From NCBI RefSeq assembly GCF_000337515.1, contig NZ_AOIQ01000021.1, positions 310,251 to 374,250 on the forward strand: 64,000 nucleotides of DNA, given 5' to 3'. The DNA is from Halovivax asiaticus JCM 14624. GTDB taxonomy: Archaea > Halobacteriota > Halobacteria > Halobacteriales > Natrialbaceae. The translations under genes were made by a program, and so were the position numbers. The notes under the pieces were generated by a model that did not search any database, was not told where the DNA came from, and saw only the letters and a program-made list of their open reading frames with translations. Numbering within the stretch: position 1 is the stretch's first letter; the number at the start of each line of letters is the position of its first letter. Positions 47,430-54,244 of the stretch are shown here, in pieces.

Positions 47430-50360
47430 TCAATCGTCAGTCACGACGCCGGTCGGTGACGAGTCGTCGATCTCGGCGAGCACGCGGTCGTGGAACGACT
47501 GGAGCGCCGCGCTCTCGTCTTCGGCGAGGACGACGTCGCTGGCCGAGAGCGTCGCGAGGCCGAACGCTCGGGGCGTCGGCGAGTCGAACAGCGCCCGTTC
47601 GACGGTCAGGTCGTCGGTCGCGATGGCGCCGACGATGGATTCGATCTCGTCGACCGCGAGTTTGTCTTCCAGTATCTCGCGGTAGGTCTCTTCGACGACG
47701 GCGAAGTCTTCGAGGCCCTCCGCGAAACCGAGCAACATCTCGCTCGAGACCTGCTGTTCGCTGGCGGACTTCTCGTACCCCTTGTAGCGTTTGAGGATCA
47801 TCAGCGAGCGCGTGGCATTGATCCGGAAGTATCGCTGGAGGAGGTCGGTCCCGGAGAGGGCGGATCGCAGATCCTCGCGGACGGCATCGGGATCGAGGTC
47901 GGCGAGGATTCCGGGGACGTCGACCTTGCGGTTCAACGGCATCGACAGGACGAAGCCGTTGTCCGCGACCGCGACCCGAACGTTGGCGGTCGCCTCCTGG
48001 GCGCAGTGGTAGGCGAGTAATCGCGAGAGACCGTCGTTGACCTGCCGGCCGTAGTTGGAGTGGACGTAGTAGTGACGTTCGTACTCATCGCGATTGCGTT
48101 CGACCTCGATCGCGAGTCGATCGTCAGTCGAGACGCTCTCGATCCCGCCGTACTGGCACTGGTGGTCGTACAGGCGCGCGAGCGCCCGGACGCTGTTGTC
48201 GTCGAGCGGAAACTCCCTGAGCCAGGCCCGGACCCGGGCGGCGCCGCCAGCCTCGTAGTGCGACAGGAGTTCCCGCTGGAAGTCGATGATTTCACGACCG
48301 AGGTCCGTCGAGAGCGGGAGTCGTTCGGAGTACCAGGAGGGCACCGTCGGTCTCGCATGAGTGTGGTCGACGTATACCTTCGACCCGCGGCGGTAGCGGT
48401 ACTCGAAGTGGTTGCCGCCGAGGACGAAGACGTCACCCTTCTCCAGGGTGTCGAGGTAGTCCTCGTCGAGTTGGCCGACCCACTCGTCGCTCGCGCGGGT
48501 GTGGACGCTGCAGGTAAAGGAGTCGGGGATCGTCCCGATGTTCGTCATGTAGATCACTCGCGCGAGGCGACCGCGCTTGCCGATCAACGTCTCGCCGACT
48601 GGGTGGTCCTCGTAGTGGTGCTCGCCGTCGGGCGGATCGTTCTCGTCGCGCCAGATCTTGGCGTAGACGTTGCGATCCTCGAGGCCGGCGTAGTCGGCGG
48701 TGAGGTACCGAATCAGCCGTTCGTAGCGCTTGGCGTCGTACTCGCGGAACGGGTAGGCTCGACGGAGGATGGCTTTCACCTCGCGTTCGGGTCGAACCTC
48801 GGCGATGGCCATCCCGTAGACGTGTTGGGCGGCTACGTCGTGGGCGTTTTCCGGGATCGATACGGAGTCGACGAAGCCCTCTTCGGCCCTCGCGAGCATG
48901 ACCGCGCACTCGACGAGTTCGTCGCGGTCGAGCGCGATCACGCGGCCGGTGACGGTCTGGCCCACGCGGTGACCGGCTCGCCCGACGCGCTGGAGCAACG
49001 CCGCGACGCTCTTCGGGGAGCCGACCTGCACGACGAGGTCGACGTGGGGCATGTCGATCCCGAGTTCGAGGGAGGTCGAGGAGGTAACGACGTCTAGCTC
49101 GCCCGACTTCAACTTCTCCTCGACGTCCTGTCGGACCTCCTTCGAGAGGCTGCCGTGGTGACAGGCGGAGTTCGACTCGTCGTAGCCGGCCCCGGGTGTG
49201 TCAGGCGCTGCAGCCTCGGCCGTCGCATCCGTGTTGGTGCCAGCGCCGGGTTCGCCGTCGTCCGAAAACCGTTCGCGTAACTCGTGGAGCACCCGTTCTG
49301 CGCCCGACCGGGTGTTCGTGAACACGAGCGTGTTGGTGTGGTCCCCGATCAGGTCGTGTAGTCGCCGGTAGAACTGGTCCTGGACGATGTCGCGGCGCGT
49401 GTTGATCAGGTCGTCCGTCGGACACTCGAGTTCGAGGTCGAAGTCGCGGGCGAACCTGGCGTCGACGATTTCGTAGTCGCGGGGCTGGCCGGCGGGTTCC
49501 AGGGGCGCGTCGGCTGTGTCACAGGATTCGTCGTCGGTGTCGGAAGCATCACTGGTACCGCTCGATGTCGCCTGAGACGATTCGTCGGGGTCCGCAGGAT
49601 ACTCCCGGCCGACGAGAAACTCGGCGACGTCTTCGAGCGGGTCGATCGTCGCCGAACAGCCGATCCGCGTGATGTCGCCCTCGGCCATCGCTTCGAGGCG
49701 TTCCAAACTCACGGAGAGGTGCGTGCCGCGTTTGCCCTCCGCCAGCGAGTGGATCTCGTCGACGACGACGTACTCGACGGTCCGGAGCTTCTCGCGGAAT
49801 TTCGGCGAATTGAGCAGGATGGCGAGCGTCTCGGGCGTCGTGTTGAGGACGTGTGGCGTCTCGTCCAGCATTTTCTGACGCTCGCTCGAAGGCGTGTCGC
49901 CGTGGCGGATCGCGTGGCGAATCTCGCCGACGTCGTCGCCGCGTTCCTCGATGATCGACTCGATTCCGGAGAGCGGCCGGGTGAGATTACGGTGGATGTC
50001 GTTGGCAAGCGACTTCAGCGGTGAGACGTACAGACAGTAGACCGAATTTGCCAGTCCGTCATCCTGCTCGCGATCACGGCAAAAGAGCTCGTTGATGATC
50101 GCACTGAAACTGGCCAACGTCTTCCCAGACCCCGTCGGCGCGCACACGAGCGTGTTAGTCCCGTCGTGGATCTTCGGAATCGCTCCGCGCTGGGGCGGTG
50201 TAAAGAAGCCGTCGTTCTCGGGAACGTATTCGCCGAACTCGCGGATCCACCACTCCTGGACCGCGGGTTCGAACAGGTCCAGGACGTCGCGGTCGGCGAT
50301 GTCCGCGTCGGCGTCGAGCGACAGGCGCTCGTGGAAGTCGACCGACTCGGCGGGTTCCAT
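47430..50360 (-). CDS. lhr: Lhr-type DEAD/DEAH-box helicase
   Basis: The protein is 976 residues from the ATG at 50360. Superfamily 2 motifs: Q/Walker A region 'TPPQRGAIPKIHDGTNTLVCAPTGSGKTLASF', Walker B 'VVDEIHSLAEGKRG', motif III 'CSATIDP', 'CHHGSLSKEVRQDVEEKLKSG' and motif VI 'QRVGRAGHRVG'. The long C-terminal part contains the Lhr winged-helix and core domain. An Asp/Ser/Thr-rich insertion occurs around residues 280-310. Lhr proteins remodel branched DNA or RNA during repair. The in-frame ATG at 50387 is an alternative start. Confidence 0.92.
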   Translation of the reverse strand: MEPAESVDFHERLSLDADADIADRDVLDLFEPAVQEWWIREFGEYVPENDGFFTPPQRGAIPKIHDGTNTLVCAPTGSGKTLASFSAIINELFCRDREQDDGLANSVYCLYVSPLKSLANDIHRNLTRPLSGIESIIEERGDDVGEIRHAIRHGDTPSSERQKMLDETPHVLNTTPETLAILLNSPKFREKLRTVEYVVVDEIHSLAEGKRGTHLSVSLERLEAMAEGDITRIGCSATIDPLEDVAEFLVGREYPADPDESSQATSSGTSDASDTDDESCDTADAPLEPAGQPRDYEIVDARFARDFDLELECPTDDLINTRRDIVQDQFYRRLHDLIGDHTNTLVFTNTRSGAERVLHELRERFSDDGEPGAGTNTDATAEAAAPDTPGAGYDESNSACHHGSLSKEVRQDVEEKLKSGELDVVTSSTSLELGIDMPHVDLVVQVGSPKSVAALLQRVGRAGHRVGQTVTGRVIALDRDELVECAVMLARAEEGFVDSVSIPENAHDVAAQHVYGMAIAEVRPEREVKAILRRAYPFREYDAKRYERLIRYLTADYAGLEDRNVYAKIWRDENDPPDGEHHYEDHPVGETLIGKRGRLARVIYMTNIGTIPDSFTCSVHTRASDEWVGQLDEDYLDTLEKGDVFVLGGNHFEYRYRRGSKVYVDHTHARPTVPSWYSERLPLSTDLGREIIDFQRELLSHYEAGGAARVRAWLREFPLDDNSVRALARLYDHQCQYGGIESVSTDDRLAIEVERNRDEYERHYYVHSNYGRQVNDGLSRLLAYHCAQEATANVRVAVADNGFVLSMPLNRKVDVPGILADLDPDAVREDLRSALSGTDLLQRYFRINATRSLMILKRYKGYEKSASEQQVSSEMLLGFAEGLEDFAVVEETYREILEDKLAVDEIESIVGAIATDDLTVERALFDSPTPRAFGLATLSASDVVLAEDESAALQSFHDRVLAEIDDSSPTGVVTDD

Positions 50361-50634
50361 CGGGGTATCCTGGGACGCGAGCGCCAAAGAGGGTTGGGTC
50401 GGCGGAGTGAAAGTGAATATGTGCGGGCTTGACGTTCCGTGGGTCGATGCGAACCTGCCGCTGTTGCCAATCTACTAACTGAAATTCTGGGCCGCAATAA
50501 CCACATATTATATGGTTGAATGGCCATGTGCCTTTGAAAACCCTCCAAGGTCCTTCTTGGTTTTTAATTTATTAAAATCAATAATTGGGTGGAAGTATTT
50601 ATCATCATCTCGTTCTCACTTTCGCTGGGACGCA
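50361..50634. promoter_or_regulatory. AT-rich promoter region of the DUF2589 operon
   Basis: The stretch 50490-50605 is much richer in A/T than the surrounding 65% GC sequence (for example GTTTTTAATTTATTAAAATC at 50560-50579). GTATTTATC at 50595-50603 lies about 36 nt upstream of the ATG at 50635 and is the likely TATA box. An inverted AACCA...TGGTT pair around 50498-50516 is also seen. No gene is seen. Confidence 0.55.
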
Positions 50635-51249
50635 ATGTCAGACCCAGACTTCCCGAACGAACTCGGTAACATTCCGTATAGCAAGATCCTCGGCGCGCCG
50701 CTCAACGCGGCCGTCGAGGCGAACGCCGAAGCGTCCGAGACGGCGGCGGCGTTCATTCAGGATGTCGGTTTCACGGAGACCGATAGTTTCGGCTCGTTCA
50801 ACGCCCAGCGCGAACCGGTGTACGTCAACTTCCATTACAAGAAACAGGCGACGAACGAGCAGGGAACCGTCGAGACCCAGGAGTTCGAGATGAAGATCCC
50901 GCTCCTGTTGTTACTCCACGTGCCGTACTTCGAGGTCGACAATGTCACCGTCGACTTCAACGTCTCGCTCAACTCGACGCACATGCGACAGGTCGAGGAG
51001 GAAGGTGGCGGTGGTGGCAGCGTCGGCGGCCTCGTCGGCGGGATCATCGGCTTCAACGTCGGGGCGAGCTACCAGAAGACCGATAAGCGACAGCAGAAGA
51101 TCGAACGCAGCTACGATCAATCCGTCCACATCGAGGCCGGCTCGATCGAATCTCCGCAGGGGGTCACTCGACTGCTCGACGTTCTCGAACAGACGATCAC
51201 TGAAACGTCCGAAGACGAGGTCTCCAACGGCGATACCGACGACACATAA
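50635..51249 (+). CDS. DUF2589-family protein, first paralogue
   Basis: The 204 residues begin MSDPDFPNELGNIPYSKILG. The layout is a short N-terminal helical segment ('GAPLNAAVEANAEASETAAAFIQDVGF'), a beta-rich middle with the string 'EMKIPLLLLLHVPYFEVDNVTVDFNVSLN' that is the DUF2589 hallmark (hydrophobic 'IPLL' strand followed by a beta-rich sandwich), a Gly-rich loop (EEGGGGGSVGGLVGGIIG), and a C-terminal basic/acidic region. No catalytic motif is visible. It is the first gene of a four-gene plus-strand operon with short gaps to the next genes. The family is of unknown function. Confidence 0.8.
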   Translation: MSDPDFPNELGNIPYSKILGAPLNAAVEANAEASETAAAFIQDVGFTETDSFGSFNAQREPVYVNFHYKKQATNEQGTVETQEFEMKIPLLLLLHVPYFEVDNVTVDFNVSLNSTHMRQVEEEGGGGGSVGGLVGGIIGFNVGASYQKTDKRQQKIERSYDQSVHIEAGSIESPQGVTRLLDVLEQTITETSEDEVSNGDTDDT

Positions 51250-51271
51250 TGGGACTCGGATGTGATCATCG

Positions 51272-52081
51272 GTGACTGACGAATTACAGAACCTGCCCCT
51301 CTCGTCGCTGTTCTCGGGGCCGCTGATCGCGGCCATCGACGCGAGCGTCGAGGCGCAGACGGAATCTGTCGCACTACTCCGCGAGTATGGCTACGACGAG
51401 GACGGACAACTGGTCACCGTGACATTCGGGTACACGACGACCGAATCCGATCCGGCGGGCGGTACGCGTCGAGTGGCCAGAGAGATCGAGATCCCGCTCT
51501 TGCTCTTTCTCTCGCTGCCCAATCTGGTGATCCACCAGATCGAAGAGGAGTTCTCCGCGAAGATCACCGAGGTCGAGACGGTAGAGAACGAGCCAGCGGC
51601 AGCCAGTCCCGCGATGGTCCCCTATCGACCGCCGCGACTGCGCGTCACGCCGTCGGATCGGGAGACCACGATGGATCGAAAGACCCGTTCGACGTACGAT
51701 CTGAACGTCAGGATGGTCGCCGAACTGCAGAACCAGTCTGCGGGAATGGACGTCCTCGACCGGGTGACACAGACTGCGACGTCCGACCGGCTCGACGAGG
51801 AGCGAACGGCGACGCTGTCCGCTACCGAGGGGCACTCCGATAGTGGCGGCCCCGCTAGCGCACCGGGTACCGACGACGGACCCCGGGACGGTCTGTCGAC
51901 CCCGGATCCATCGGCGTTCACCGTCTCCGAACTGCAAACGGCGATCGACGACATCGACGATGCGTCCACGCTCCGGGCGATGTTGGCGGCCGAACGCGAG
52001 AACCACGACCGAAAGACCGCCCGACAAGCTATCGAACGCCGCCTCGACGACGTGCGAGGCGGGGAGGACTCGGCCGAATGA
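51272..52081 (+). CDS. DUF2589-family protein, second paralogue
   Basis: The 269 residues start at GTG 51272. The N-terminal part (LPLSSLFSGPLIAAIDASVEAQTESVALL) and the 'VAREIEIPLLLFLSLPNLVIHQIEEEFSAKI' strand are the same design as in the upstream gene. The C-terminal half is Asp/Ser-rich and ends with a helical 'SELQTAIDDIDDASTLRAMLAAERENHDRKTARQAIERRLDD'. The last four bases overlap the next gene's ATG. Two DUF2589 genes together are common in bacteria and point to a hetero-oligomer. Confidence 0.78.
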   Translation: MTDELQNLPLSSLFSGPLIAAIDASVEAQTESVALLREYGYDEDGQLVTVTFGYTTTESDPAGGTRRVAREIEIPLLLFLSLPNLVIHQIEEEFSAKITEVETVENEPAAASPAMVPYRPPRLRVTPSDRETTMDRKTRSTYDLNVRMVAELQNQSAGMDVLDRVTQTATSDRLDEERTATLSATEGHSDSGGPASAPGTDDGPRDGLSTPDPSAFTVSELQTAIDDIDDASTLRAMLAAERENHDRKTARQAIERRLDDVRGGEDSAE

Positions 52082-52965
52082 CCGAACTCAAACGGTTTCT
52101 GACGGCGCTGTACGATTCGTTCTCCGAAGCGGAACTACAGGCGTTACAACACGGCCGCGAACGCTACCTGAAACTCGTAGAGAATGGCGCGATCCCGAAG
52201 GACGGAGCCGTCCCCGTCTACCACGCGGCGAACGCCGACGTGACTCTCGACGTTGGACTCGAAGCCGAGGAGACCGAGCGCGGCATGGAGATCTACATCA
52301 CTGGCTCCCGCGACGGTGATGAATCCGGACTCGCGTTCACCGTCGATCTGTTCGACCTCGTCGACATCGACGACTTCGACGAGCTCGACTACGAGGACAT
52401 TCTCGGAGCCGGAACCGGGCCGGGCCGATCCGTTCCTCGAAAACCTGGCGACGACGTGGCTGCCGGTGACGAGTTACGGGACGCTGGCGGTCTCTCGGTC
52501 GATGCCGTCCACGGTATCGGCATCCAATTTTCGAACGACCTCGCTGACGCGGGCATCGAGACGGTCGTCGATCTGGTCGCCCACACGCCAGAAGAGCTCG
52601 CCACCATCGTCAGCTCGGAAGGGGCGACCGTCTCTCCTGGCCGTGCGAACGACTGGATCGAACAGGCTCGCGGCATGATTACCGTCCTTTCGGGTGGCCA
52701 ACCGATCGAGTTCGTCGACGATATCGGCCCGACGATCGGTGGGCGTCTGCGAGAACACGGCATCGATACGCTAGAGCAACTCGTCGAGACGGACCCGTCC
52801 GAAATCGCAGAGTCGGTGAGTACGGACTCGCGGTCCGTTTCGCCGGATCGCACCGCTCGTTGGCTCGACGAAGCCGACGCGTTACTCGCGGAACTCGAAT
52901 CGGCGGAGAATGCGGCGGCCGACGACCGGCCGCCGTCAGAAACCGACGCAACTGATGACACCTAG
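52078..52965 (+). CDS. Helix-hairpin-helix protein of the DUF2589 operon
   Basis: The 295 residues have an N-terminal part of about 110 residues with strands 'AVPVYHAANADVTLDVGLEAEET', resembling the beta layer of DUF2589 partners. Two helix-hairpin-helix units follow: 'GGLSVDAVHGIGIQFSNDLADAGIETVVDLVAHTPEELATIV' (about 139-180) and 'VDDIGPTIGGRLREHGIDTLEQLVETDPSEIAESV' (about 213-248). HhH pairs bind DNA backbone or proteins. The gene's start overlaps the stop of the second DUF2589 gene. Function unknown. Confidence 0.75.
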   Translation: MTELKRFLTALYDSFSEAELQALQHGRERYLKLVENGAIPKDGAVPVYHAANADVTLDVGLEAEETERGMEIYITGSRDGDESGLAFTVDLFDLVDIDDFDELDYEDILGAGTGPGRSVPRKPGDDVAAGDELRDAGGLSVDAVHGIGIQFSNDLADAGIETVVDLVAHTPEELATIVSSEGATVSPGRANDWIEQARGMITVLSGGQPIEFVDDIGPTIGGRLREHGIDTLEQLVETDPSEIAESVSTDSRSVSPDRTARWLDEADALLAELESAENAAADDRPPSETDATDDT

Positions 52966-52969
52966 ATAG

Positions 52970-53299
52970 ATGACAGGGAACCTTGGAACGTACTTCGAGA
53001 CGCTGACGATGAGTGATCGAGCCGACCTCGAGACGCGGCTCGAGCGGTATCGTGACCAACTGGCGGACCAGGGCTACGAGGCGACGATCGCTGAAGGGGA
53101 AGACGGCTTCTTCGCCGGCGTCCTCGTGATCGACGACGACGATGGTGGCCGATTCGGCTTTCTCGAACCCGACGGGAGCGTTAGCTGGATCGGGGGCGAA
53201 AACGGCGGTATCGGCTCGCTGGGGACGGCCGTCGCACAGAACCCGACCGAGGAACTCGAACCGGAGACCGACGGGCTAGACAACGTCGACGTGGAATAG
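52970..53299 (+). CDS. Small acidic protein closing the DUF2589 operon
   Basis: The 109 residues are beta-rich ('GYEATIAEGEDGFFAGVLVIDDDDGGRFGFLEPDGSVSWIG') with a disordered acidic tail. The start is only 4 nt after the upstream stop, so the gene is likely co-transcribed. No family is recognised. Confidence 0.6.
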   Translation: MTGNLGTYFETLTMSDRADLETRLERYRDQLADQGYEATIAEGEDGFFAGVLVIDDDDGGRFGFLEPDGSVSWIGGENGGIGSLGTAVAQNPTEELEPETDGLDNVDVE

Positions 53300-53503: not shown

Positions 53504-54244
53504 ATGCAGGTGACCTTCCTCGGAACCGGTGCCGCCATGCCCACGGGCGATCGGTACCAGACGGGGATTCTCGTCCAGGAGGACGACAGGACCGTCCTGA
53601 TCGACTGTGGAGCCGGCGTGTTACAGCGGCTGGAACAGTCTGGCGTGGGCTACGAGGCCGTGTCGACGGTCCTTCTGACACATCACCATCTGGATCACGT
53701 CGCCGACCTCCTCCCCTTGATGAAGGCCCGCTGGCTCGCGGGCGAGGAGCACCTGGAGATCGTCGGCCCGCAAGGAACGAAGGCGCTGGTGGACGACCTC
53801 CTCTCCGTGTTCGAGTATCTGGACGGCCGCCTCGAGCTCCAGATCCGCGAGGTGGTCCCGGACGACGAGTTTACCGTCGCCGGATTCGACGTCACCTCCT
53901 ACGAGACGCGCCACTCGGTACCCTGTCTGGCCTACCGGTTCGACGACCGCTTTACCTTCGCCGGCGACAGCGAAGCCTTCGCTGGCCTCGCGAACTTCGC
54001 CGACGGCTGTGCGATCCTGGCTCACGACTGTTCGTTTCCCGACGACGTCGACGTGTCGAACCACCCGACGCCGGACTCACTTGGGAAGACACTTTCGGGC
54101 GTGGAGATCGGCCGACTCTACCTCACGCACCTGTACCCGCACACGCAGGGGCGCCACGAGGAGATGCGTCGATCGATCGCCGAACACTTCGATGGCGACG
54201 TCAGGTTCGCCGAGGATCTCCAGCGAGTGACGATCGAATCCTGA
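53504..54244 (+). CDS. RNase Z-like metallo-beta-lactamase-fold hydrolase
   Basis: The 246 residues begin MQVTFLGTGAAMPTGDRYQT, with the zinc motif HHHLDH (TVLLTHHHLDHVADLLP), 'FTFAGDS' and 'YLTHLYPHT' as the later zinc ligands. tRNase Z proper has about 300 residues with an arm for tRNA binding; this one is shorter, so it may be an RNase BN-like nuclease or a general phosphodiesterase. The assignment of tRNA 3' processing is therefore not certain. Confidence 0.82.
   Translation: MQVTFLGTGAAMPTGDRYQTGILVQEDDRTVLIDCGAGVLQRLEQSGVGYEAVSTVLLTHHHLDHVADLLPLMKARWLAGEEHLEIVGPQGTKALVDDLLSVFEYLDGRLELQIREVVPDDEFTVAGFDVTSYETRHSVPCLAYRFDDRFTFAGDSEAFAGLANFADGCAILAHDCSFPDDVDVSNHPTPDSLGKTLSGVEIGRLYLTHLYPHTQGRHEEMRRSIAEHFDGDVRFAEDLQRVTIES

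Follow-up and report, generated by a model that had tools for sequence, protein, structure and literature searches.

DUF2589 (PF11655) is a protein family to which no function has been assigned. Growth of Archaeoglobus fulgidus on lactate is accompanied by a joint rise in the expression of AF0414-AF0417, genes described as related to DUF2589 (PMC3949148), and this lactate expression is the only functional data found for the cassette discussed below. The literature searched held no paper on partner families or an operon of DUF2589, and the databases, structures and literature searched gave no function for the cassette. Two other described protein groups resemble single parts of the present locus. 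HhH_5 proteins (RadA N-terminus, NusA C-terminus, Y-family polymerases) are similar to the tandem helix-hairpin-helix (HhH) half of one product, B-HhH; unlike them, B-HhH has no ATPase, polymerase or RNA-polymerase-binding part, and the HhH is optional in its orthologues. In the same genome, an EtfA-like protein has an N-terminal extension (G000:C23:74-244, L168) similar to the C-terminal module of another product, A2 (49% over 57 aa, E 3.8e-12); in A2 the module sits on DUF2589 and the flavoprotein domain of the EtfA-like protein is missing.

The window, the whole 64,000-nucleotide stretch of Halovivax asiaticus DNA analysed here, contains four open reading frames on the plus strand at 50635-53299, forming one tight operon in the order A, A2, B-HhH and D (Table 1). 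A and A2 are separated by 22 bp, A2 and B-HhH overlap by 4 bp (ATGA), and B-HhH is followed by D after a 4 bp gap. Membership of DUF2589 was defined as a PF11655 score above the Pfam gathering cut-off (23 bits) over most of the domain, and both A and A2 scored well above it. The C-terminal 66 aa of A2 form a separate module. The library searches gave no match for the first ~130 residues of B-HhH, and the second half of the protein holds two HhH_5 stretches. D showed no match in library searches (families, PDB sequences); D+E make up 23.9% of its residues, and most of its copies have VDVE or VDIE at the C-terminal end. All four products are acidic and lack membrane-like segments (the highest Kyte-Doolittle mean over 19 residues is 1.58). 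The preliminary description had recognised two DUF2589 paralogues, a small acidic protein and a tight operon, and all three points agree with these data.

Table 1. Positions of the operon, its upstream signals, its borders and the related Archaeoglobus region.
Feature	Position	Strand	Basis or remark
Lhr-like DEAD/H helicase, left border, outside the system	47430-50387	-	adjoins the MBL gene in operon-free relatives
AT-rich upstream region with promoter	50505-50634	+	36.9% GC
TTATTA-N4-CAATAA near-palindrome	50569-50584	+	kept in four congeners, surroundings diverged
TATTTATC, likely TATA box	50596-50603	+	identical in all four congeners; distance to ATG
A, DUF2589 protein, 204 aa	50635-51249	+	Pfam PF11655, 73.6 bits
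A2, second DUF2589 paralogue, 269 aa, GTG start	51272-52081	+	PF11655, 53.1 bits
C-terminal module of A2	51881-52078		similar to extension of EtfA-like protein
B-HhH, 295 aa: B-type domain aa 1-~100, tandem HhH aa ~140-280	52078-52965	+	hhalign of N-terminus with family B; HHH_5 37.9 bits; helix 2-35 then strands (model)
D, small acidic protein, 109 aa	52970-53299	+	no library match; in 11/11 operon genomes
MBL-fold hydrolase, right border, outside the system	53504-54244	+	adjoins the helicase in operon-free relatives
Archaeoglobus DUF2589 region	AF0414-AF0417 (literature); loci L042-L049, L133, L137, L138, L142, L143

The GC content of the 130 bp before A is far below the window mean of 63.6%, and this is the only 130-bp stretch that low within the window, in line with the unusually AT-rich promoter noted earlier. 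The near-palindrome reads TTATTA-N4-TAATAA in two congeners, so the window copy has one mismatch, and it is a putative regulator site. From the position of the likely TATA box relative to the ATG, the transcript would have a very short leader or none. With a TATA promoter and a palindromic site, expression of the operon would probably be conditional.

Within the order, DUF2589 was found in 11 of 394 genomes, across four genera. The N-terminal 110 residues of B-HhH are present in exactly the same 11 genomes, as is D, which showed further weak matches at E about 5e-4 and is known from haloarchaea only. The four genes are adjacent in every one of these genomes and their order is identical; the preliminary description had proposed looking for the genes together elsewhere, and they are so found. 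Between congeners, all four genes are under purifying selection (dN/dS 0.03-0.30), with the lowest values for A (0.03-0.17) and D (0.09-0.13) and higher values for A2 and B-HhH (0.14-0.30). As the arrangement is conserved in 11 genomes and purifying selection acts on all four genes, the operon is not a product of chance. Another genome (G485) has only a truncated remnant of D (G485:C1:2160841-2161029; L164:5743-6033; 62% over 63 aa), with A, A2 and B absent beside it, which is apparently a decayed copy of the operon.

A, A2, B-HhH and D behave as a single block in both inheritance and movement. In the window they occupy the gap between the helicase and MBL-fold hydrolase genes, and in operon-free relatives this gap measures 165 bp (the congener G543) or 111 bp (G272, of another genus) with nothing between the two genes. 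Since the operon fills the 111-165 bp gap of its relatives, it was gained or lost as a unit. In other genera it sits at different genomic places. The spacers flanking the insertion point have already diverged, no tRNA was found near the operon, and a plasmid search with the operon at the DNA level gave no match.

Scanning 84,980 genomes with the A alignment, we obtained 87 relatives and kept 80, eight of them haloarchaeal and 72 belonging to other archaea or to many bacterial phyla. The sampling relied on a conserved motif of A and therefore under-represents distant DUF2589 loci. A single-protein A query gave no match in viral and genome contigs, and the alignment query was required. Statements on family A rest on an alignment profile and not on a cluster that the over-long ORF L073 had contaminated. 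Only two families recur around A in all non-haloarchaeal lineages, and both are always on the strand of A: B (~227 aa), which follows A at a median distance of 69 bp, and C (~190 aa, helical), which follows B at a median of 4 bp. B is downstream of A in 71 of the 72 non-haloarchaeal loci; the one exception is on a contig with only 174 bases left beyond A. The A-B linkage is complete wherever it is testable in this sample (71 of 71 loci on long enough contigs), and the gene-neighbourhood check suggested earlier has thus returned a conserved order there as well as in 11 of 11 haloarchaeal genomes. Nine non-haloarchaeal loci lack C; five are from Archaeoglobi, and in the other four the contig stops too soon. 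Neither B nor C has a convincing Pfam family or an NCBIfam family. The B profile gave no match at the plasmid DUF2589 copies of the Deltaproteobacteria (Smac51) and of Vibrio tubiashii (pFP31). The cassette is spread over Chloroflexota, Bacteroidota, Pseudomonadota, Planctomycetota, Bathyarchaeota, Archaeoglobi and haloarchaea.

Compared with this A-B-C cassette, which is defined here, the window operon shows the same sequence of A and then B on one strand with short joints. It differs in having two A genes, in having D where C stands, and in a B that is cut to the helix-plus-strand domain and carries HhH or a charged tail. The N-terminus of B-HhH is B-like and lies directly 3' of A2 on the same strand, which places the operon with the A-B cassettes; it falls outside the A-B-C form, as the C profile matched no haloarchaeal ORF and D is a familyless protein. 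The Archaeoglobus region likewise has A, A2 and then a short B of ~145-160 aa; in contrast to the window operon, it has neither HhH nor D, and its B has a short charged N-terminal extension. This archaeoglobal B has no helical middle part and is a bridge toward the haloarchaeal form. We take the window operon to represent, in its haloarchaeal form, a widespread cassette with a core of A and a downstream partner, B, distantly related to A.

The relation of B-HhH to family B was examined by profile comparison. The hhalign alignment of the B-HhH N-terminus with family B starts at residue 1 and spans 68 columns, interrupted by one gap (E 3.2e-4, against 0.086 for the reversed control), and A matched B with E 1.4e-4 (reversed control 0.41); both E-values are from single comparisons and are not overwhelming. 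A and B have the segment PLLxxxPVPxxRIxExTID in common, and a direct profile comparison of A with the B-HhH N-terminus gave no match. The profile match, together with the same operon position as B, indicates that the B-HhH N-terminus is a distant B, so that the unit is A + A2 + B(-HhH) + D. The DUF2589-partner-like N-terminus proposed for the HhH protein in the preliminary description is upheld by this result.

The AlphaFold2 models of A (mean pLDDT 62, pTM 0.42, good only at residues ~31-100) and B-HhH (mean pLDDT 62.9, pTM 0.46) are weak single-chain models and were used for the order of elements only. The A model has a long N-terminal helix (15-45), four strands, a Gly-rich loop of no confident structure and a C-terminal helix (175-189). 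The B-HhH model has a helix (2-35), three strands and then the tandem HhH. The element order is therefore the same in both, a long helix followed by strands. Neither model matched a solved structure at E<=0.001, and the best Foldseek match of the A model in the PDB (Bcs1, E 0.42) is noise. When A, B, C, B-HhH and D were compared with PDB sequences, any matches were at chance level. The CIS12 and phasin PhaH matches of B-HhH are confined to its HhH part, and the T6SS_VasJ match (1 of 19 C members, E 0.009) and the major-head-protein match (1 of 40 A members, E 0.0097) are chance matches. No enzyme family was found for A, B, C or D in the Pfam, NCBIfam, PHROGs and PDB sequence searches, as far as each was run, which agrees with the earlier remark that no catalytic motif is visible; a missing catalytic match does not prove missing activity of A or B.

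Our best guess, for which the balance is about even, is that related A- and B-type subunits form a non-enzymatic hetero-oligomer. The structural hetero-oligomer of the preliminary description is compatible with the data, given the motif and the helix-then-strands order common to A and B. We infer that the long N-terminal helices and the beta strands of A, A2 and the B domain would hold these subunits together in a cytoplasmic hetero-oligomer predicted to have no enzymatic activity, and that the tight or overlapping gene joints would allow the subunits to be translated in a fixed ratio. The C-termini of A2 and B would face outward and carry lineage-specific tails (the EtfA-type module and the tandem HhH, or charged tails in Halorubrum), which may bind a partner or tune solubility. 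D may be a small accessory or capping subunit. A bolder version, which we consider rather doubtful, is that A and B are building blocks of an undescribed self-assembling particle, ring or filament common to archaea and bacteria, with lineage-swapped outward tails. If this were true, HhH, the EtfA-type module and the charged tails would have been exchanged to recruit different cargo or partners.

The tails also bear on the part played by the HhH. In Halorubrum and Halobellus the B domain carries a charged low-complexity tail in place of HhH, and the A2 C-terminus, an EtfA-type module in the window, is charged in Halorubrum. In two Natrialbaceae MAGs (L067:4560-6176, L068:4477-5994), the B part and the HhH are separated by an additional domain of ~150 aa. 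The variable B and A2 tails point to a conserved scaffold with exchanged tails, and mainly because of this exchange, HhH-DNA contact as the core function is unsupported.

The HhH is thus not core to the cassette, and its reading as a system-defining, DNA-contacting part is not supported, as it is missing in Halorubrum, Halobellus, Archaeoglobi and bacterial B. The same absence makes it unlikely that the operon encodes a DNA-associated complex in which the tandem HhH binds DNA and A/A2 serve as scaffold in repair or nucleoid organisation, even though B-HhH has two HhH_5 domains with GIG hairpins and shows profile and weak fold matches to the HhH of RadA, NusA and a Y-family polymerase. HhH serves protein contacts too, and its half of the protein has a marked excess of acidic residues (34 D+E against 8 K+R in 158 aa), although acidic proteins are usual in halophiles. 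A cell-envelope or lysis-linked device, in which bacterial A-B-C works with peptidoglycan peptidases, is quite unlikely. M15/VanY or peptidoglycan-binding proteins adjoin A-B-C in Chryseobacterium, and five further bacterial loci show the same (L085, L139 and L145, with L083 and L135 included by similarity to L145), while a muramidase lies close to the plasmid copy of Smac51; such a neighbour is missing, however, from most of the bacterial loci examined, and haloarchaea and Archaeoglobi, which have no peptidoglycan, keep A and B. The neighbours in these unrelated bacteria, which are peptidoglycan-binding, VanY-like or related, lie at L083:12038-12601, L135:12024-12587, L145:2814-3683, L085:8805-9740 and L139:8973-9965, and the 187-aa family of L083 and L135 has no Pfam match of its own.

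We regard an anti-phage defence or toxin-like system, with the Chryseobacterium patatin and M15 peptidase as effectors, as very unlikely. Gain and loss are patchy and block-wise, and patatin and M15 genes lie upstream of A on the strand of A-B-C in 17 Chryseobacterium loci, but patatin was found in Chryseobacterium only and the cassette core has no effector. The four proteins had no PADLOC match (E<=1), and each PADLOC match among their haloarchaeal neighbours involved one protein only, mostly through helicase and nuclease models. In the haloarchaeal loci sampled, the neighbours are housekeeping genes and no defence island was found. In the Chryseobacterium loci (L076-L121), the M15 D-Ala-D-Ala peptidase and patatin-like phospholipase genes are ~2.1 and 1.4 kb upstream of A. 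A structural module domesticated from a phage or virus is least probable; the long helix plus strands, one 4-kb scaffold labelled as phage that carries two copies of A and a B-like ORF, and one BFVD structure match of the A model (E 2.7e-6, an unnamed 178-aa viral protein) can be cited in its favour. The BFVD match is probably another DUF2589, the search of 2.9 million viral contigs gave 1 match, at the edge of a Chryseobacterium prophage, and A and B members showed no PHROG match beyond single chance-level ones. On viral contig L147 (2063-4004), tail sheath and tail tube look-alikes, recognised by eye, lie shortly before a Chryseobacterium DUF2589 locus, on the opposite strand.

Returning to the cassette, its core parts match no described system, as the preliminary description had suggested for the operon as a whole; the novelty lies in this, and no new mechanism is claimed. 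The linked families occur in very different cells and must serve a useful role there. The named parts (A, B and C; haloarchaeal A2, B-HhH and D) make the cassette testable, for example in its Halorubrum and Chryseobacterium carriers.

The tree, built from 64 rows, shows four groups that each fall on one side of a branch, namely the A and the A2 proteins of haloarchaea and the A and the A2 proteins of Archaeoglobi; long branches blur whether the two A2 lines had a common or a separate origin. Bathyarchaeota are placed among Chloroflexota and Armatimonadota, and Methanoperedens beside Limnobacter, positions that suggest transfer between domains. Nearly all full-length proteins of family B (alignment A3) end in a conserved PE or a similar acidic residue, which suggests a bound terminal peptide.
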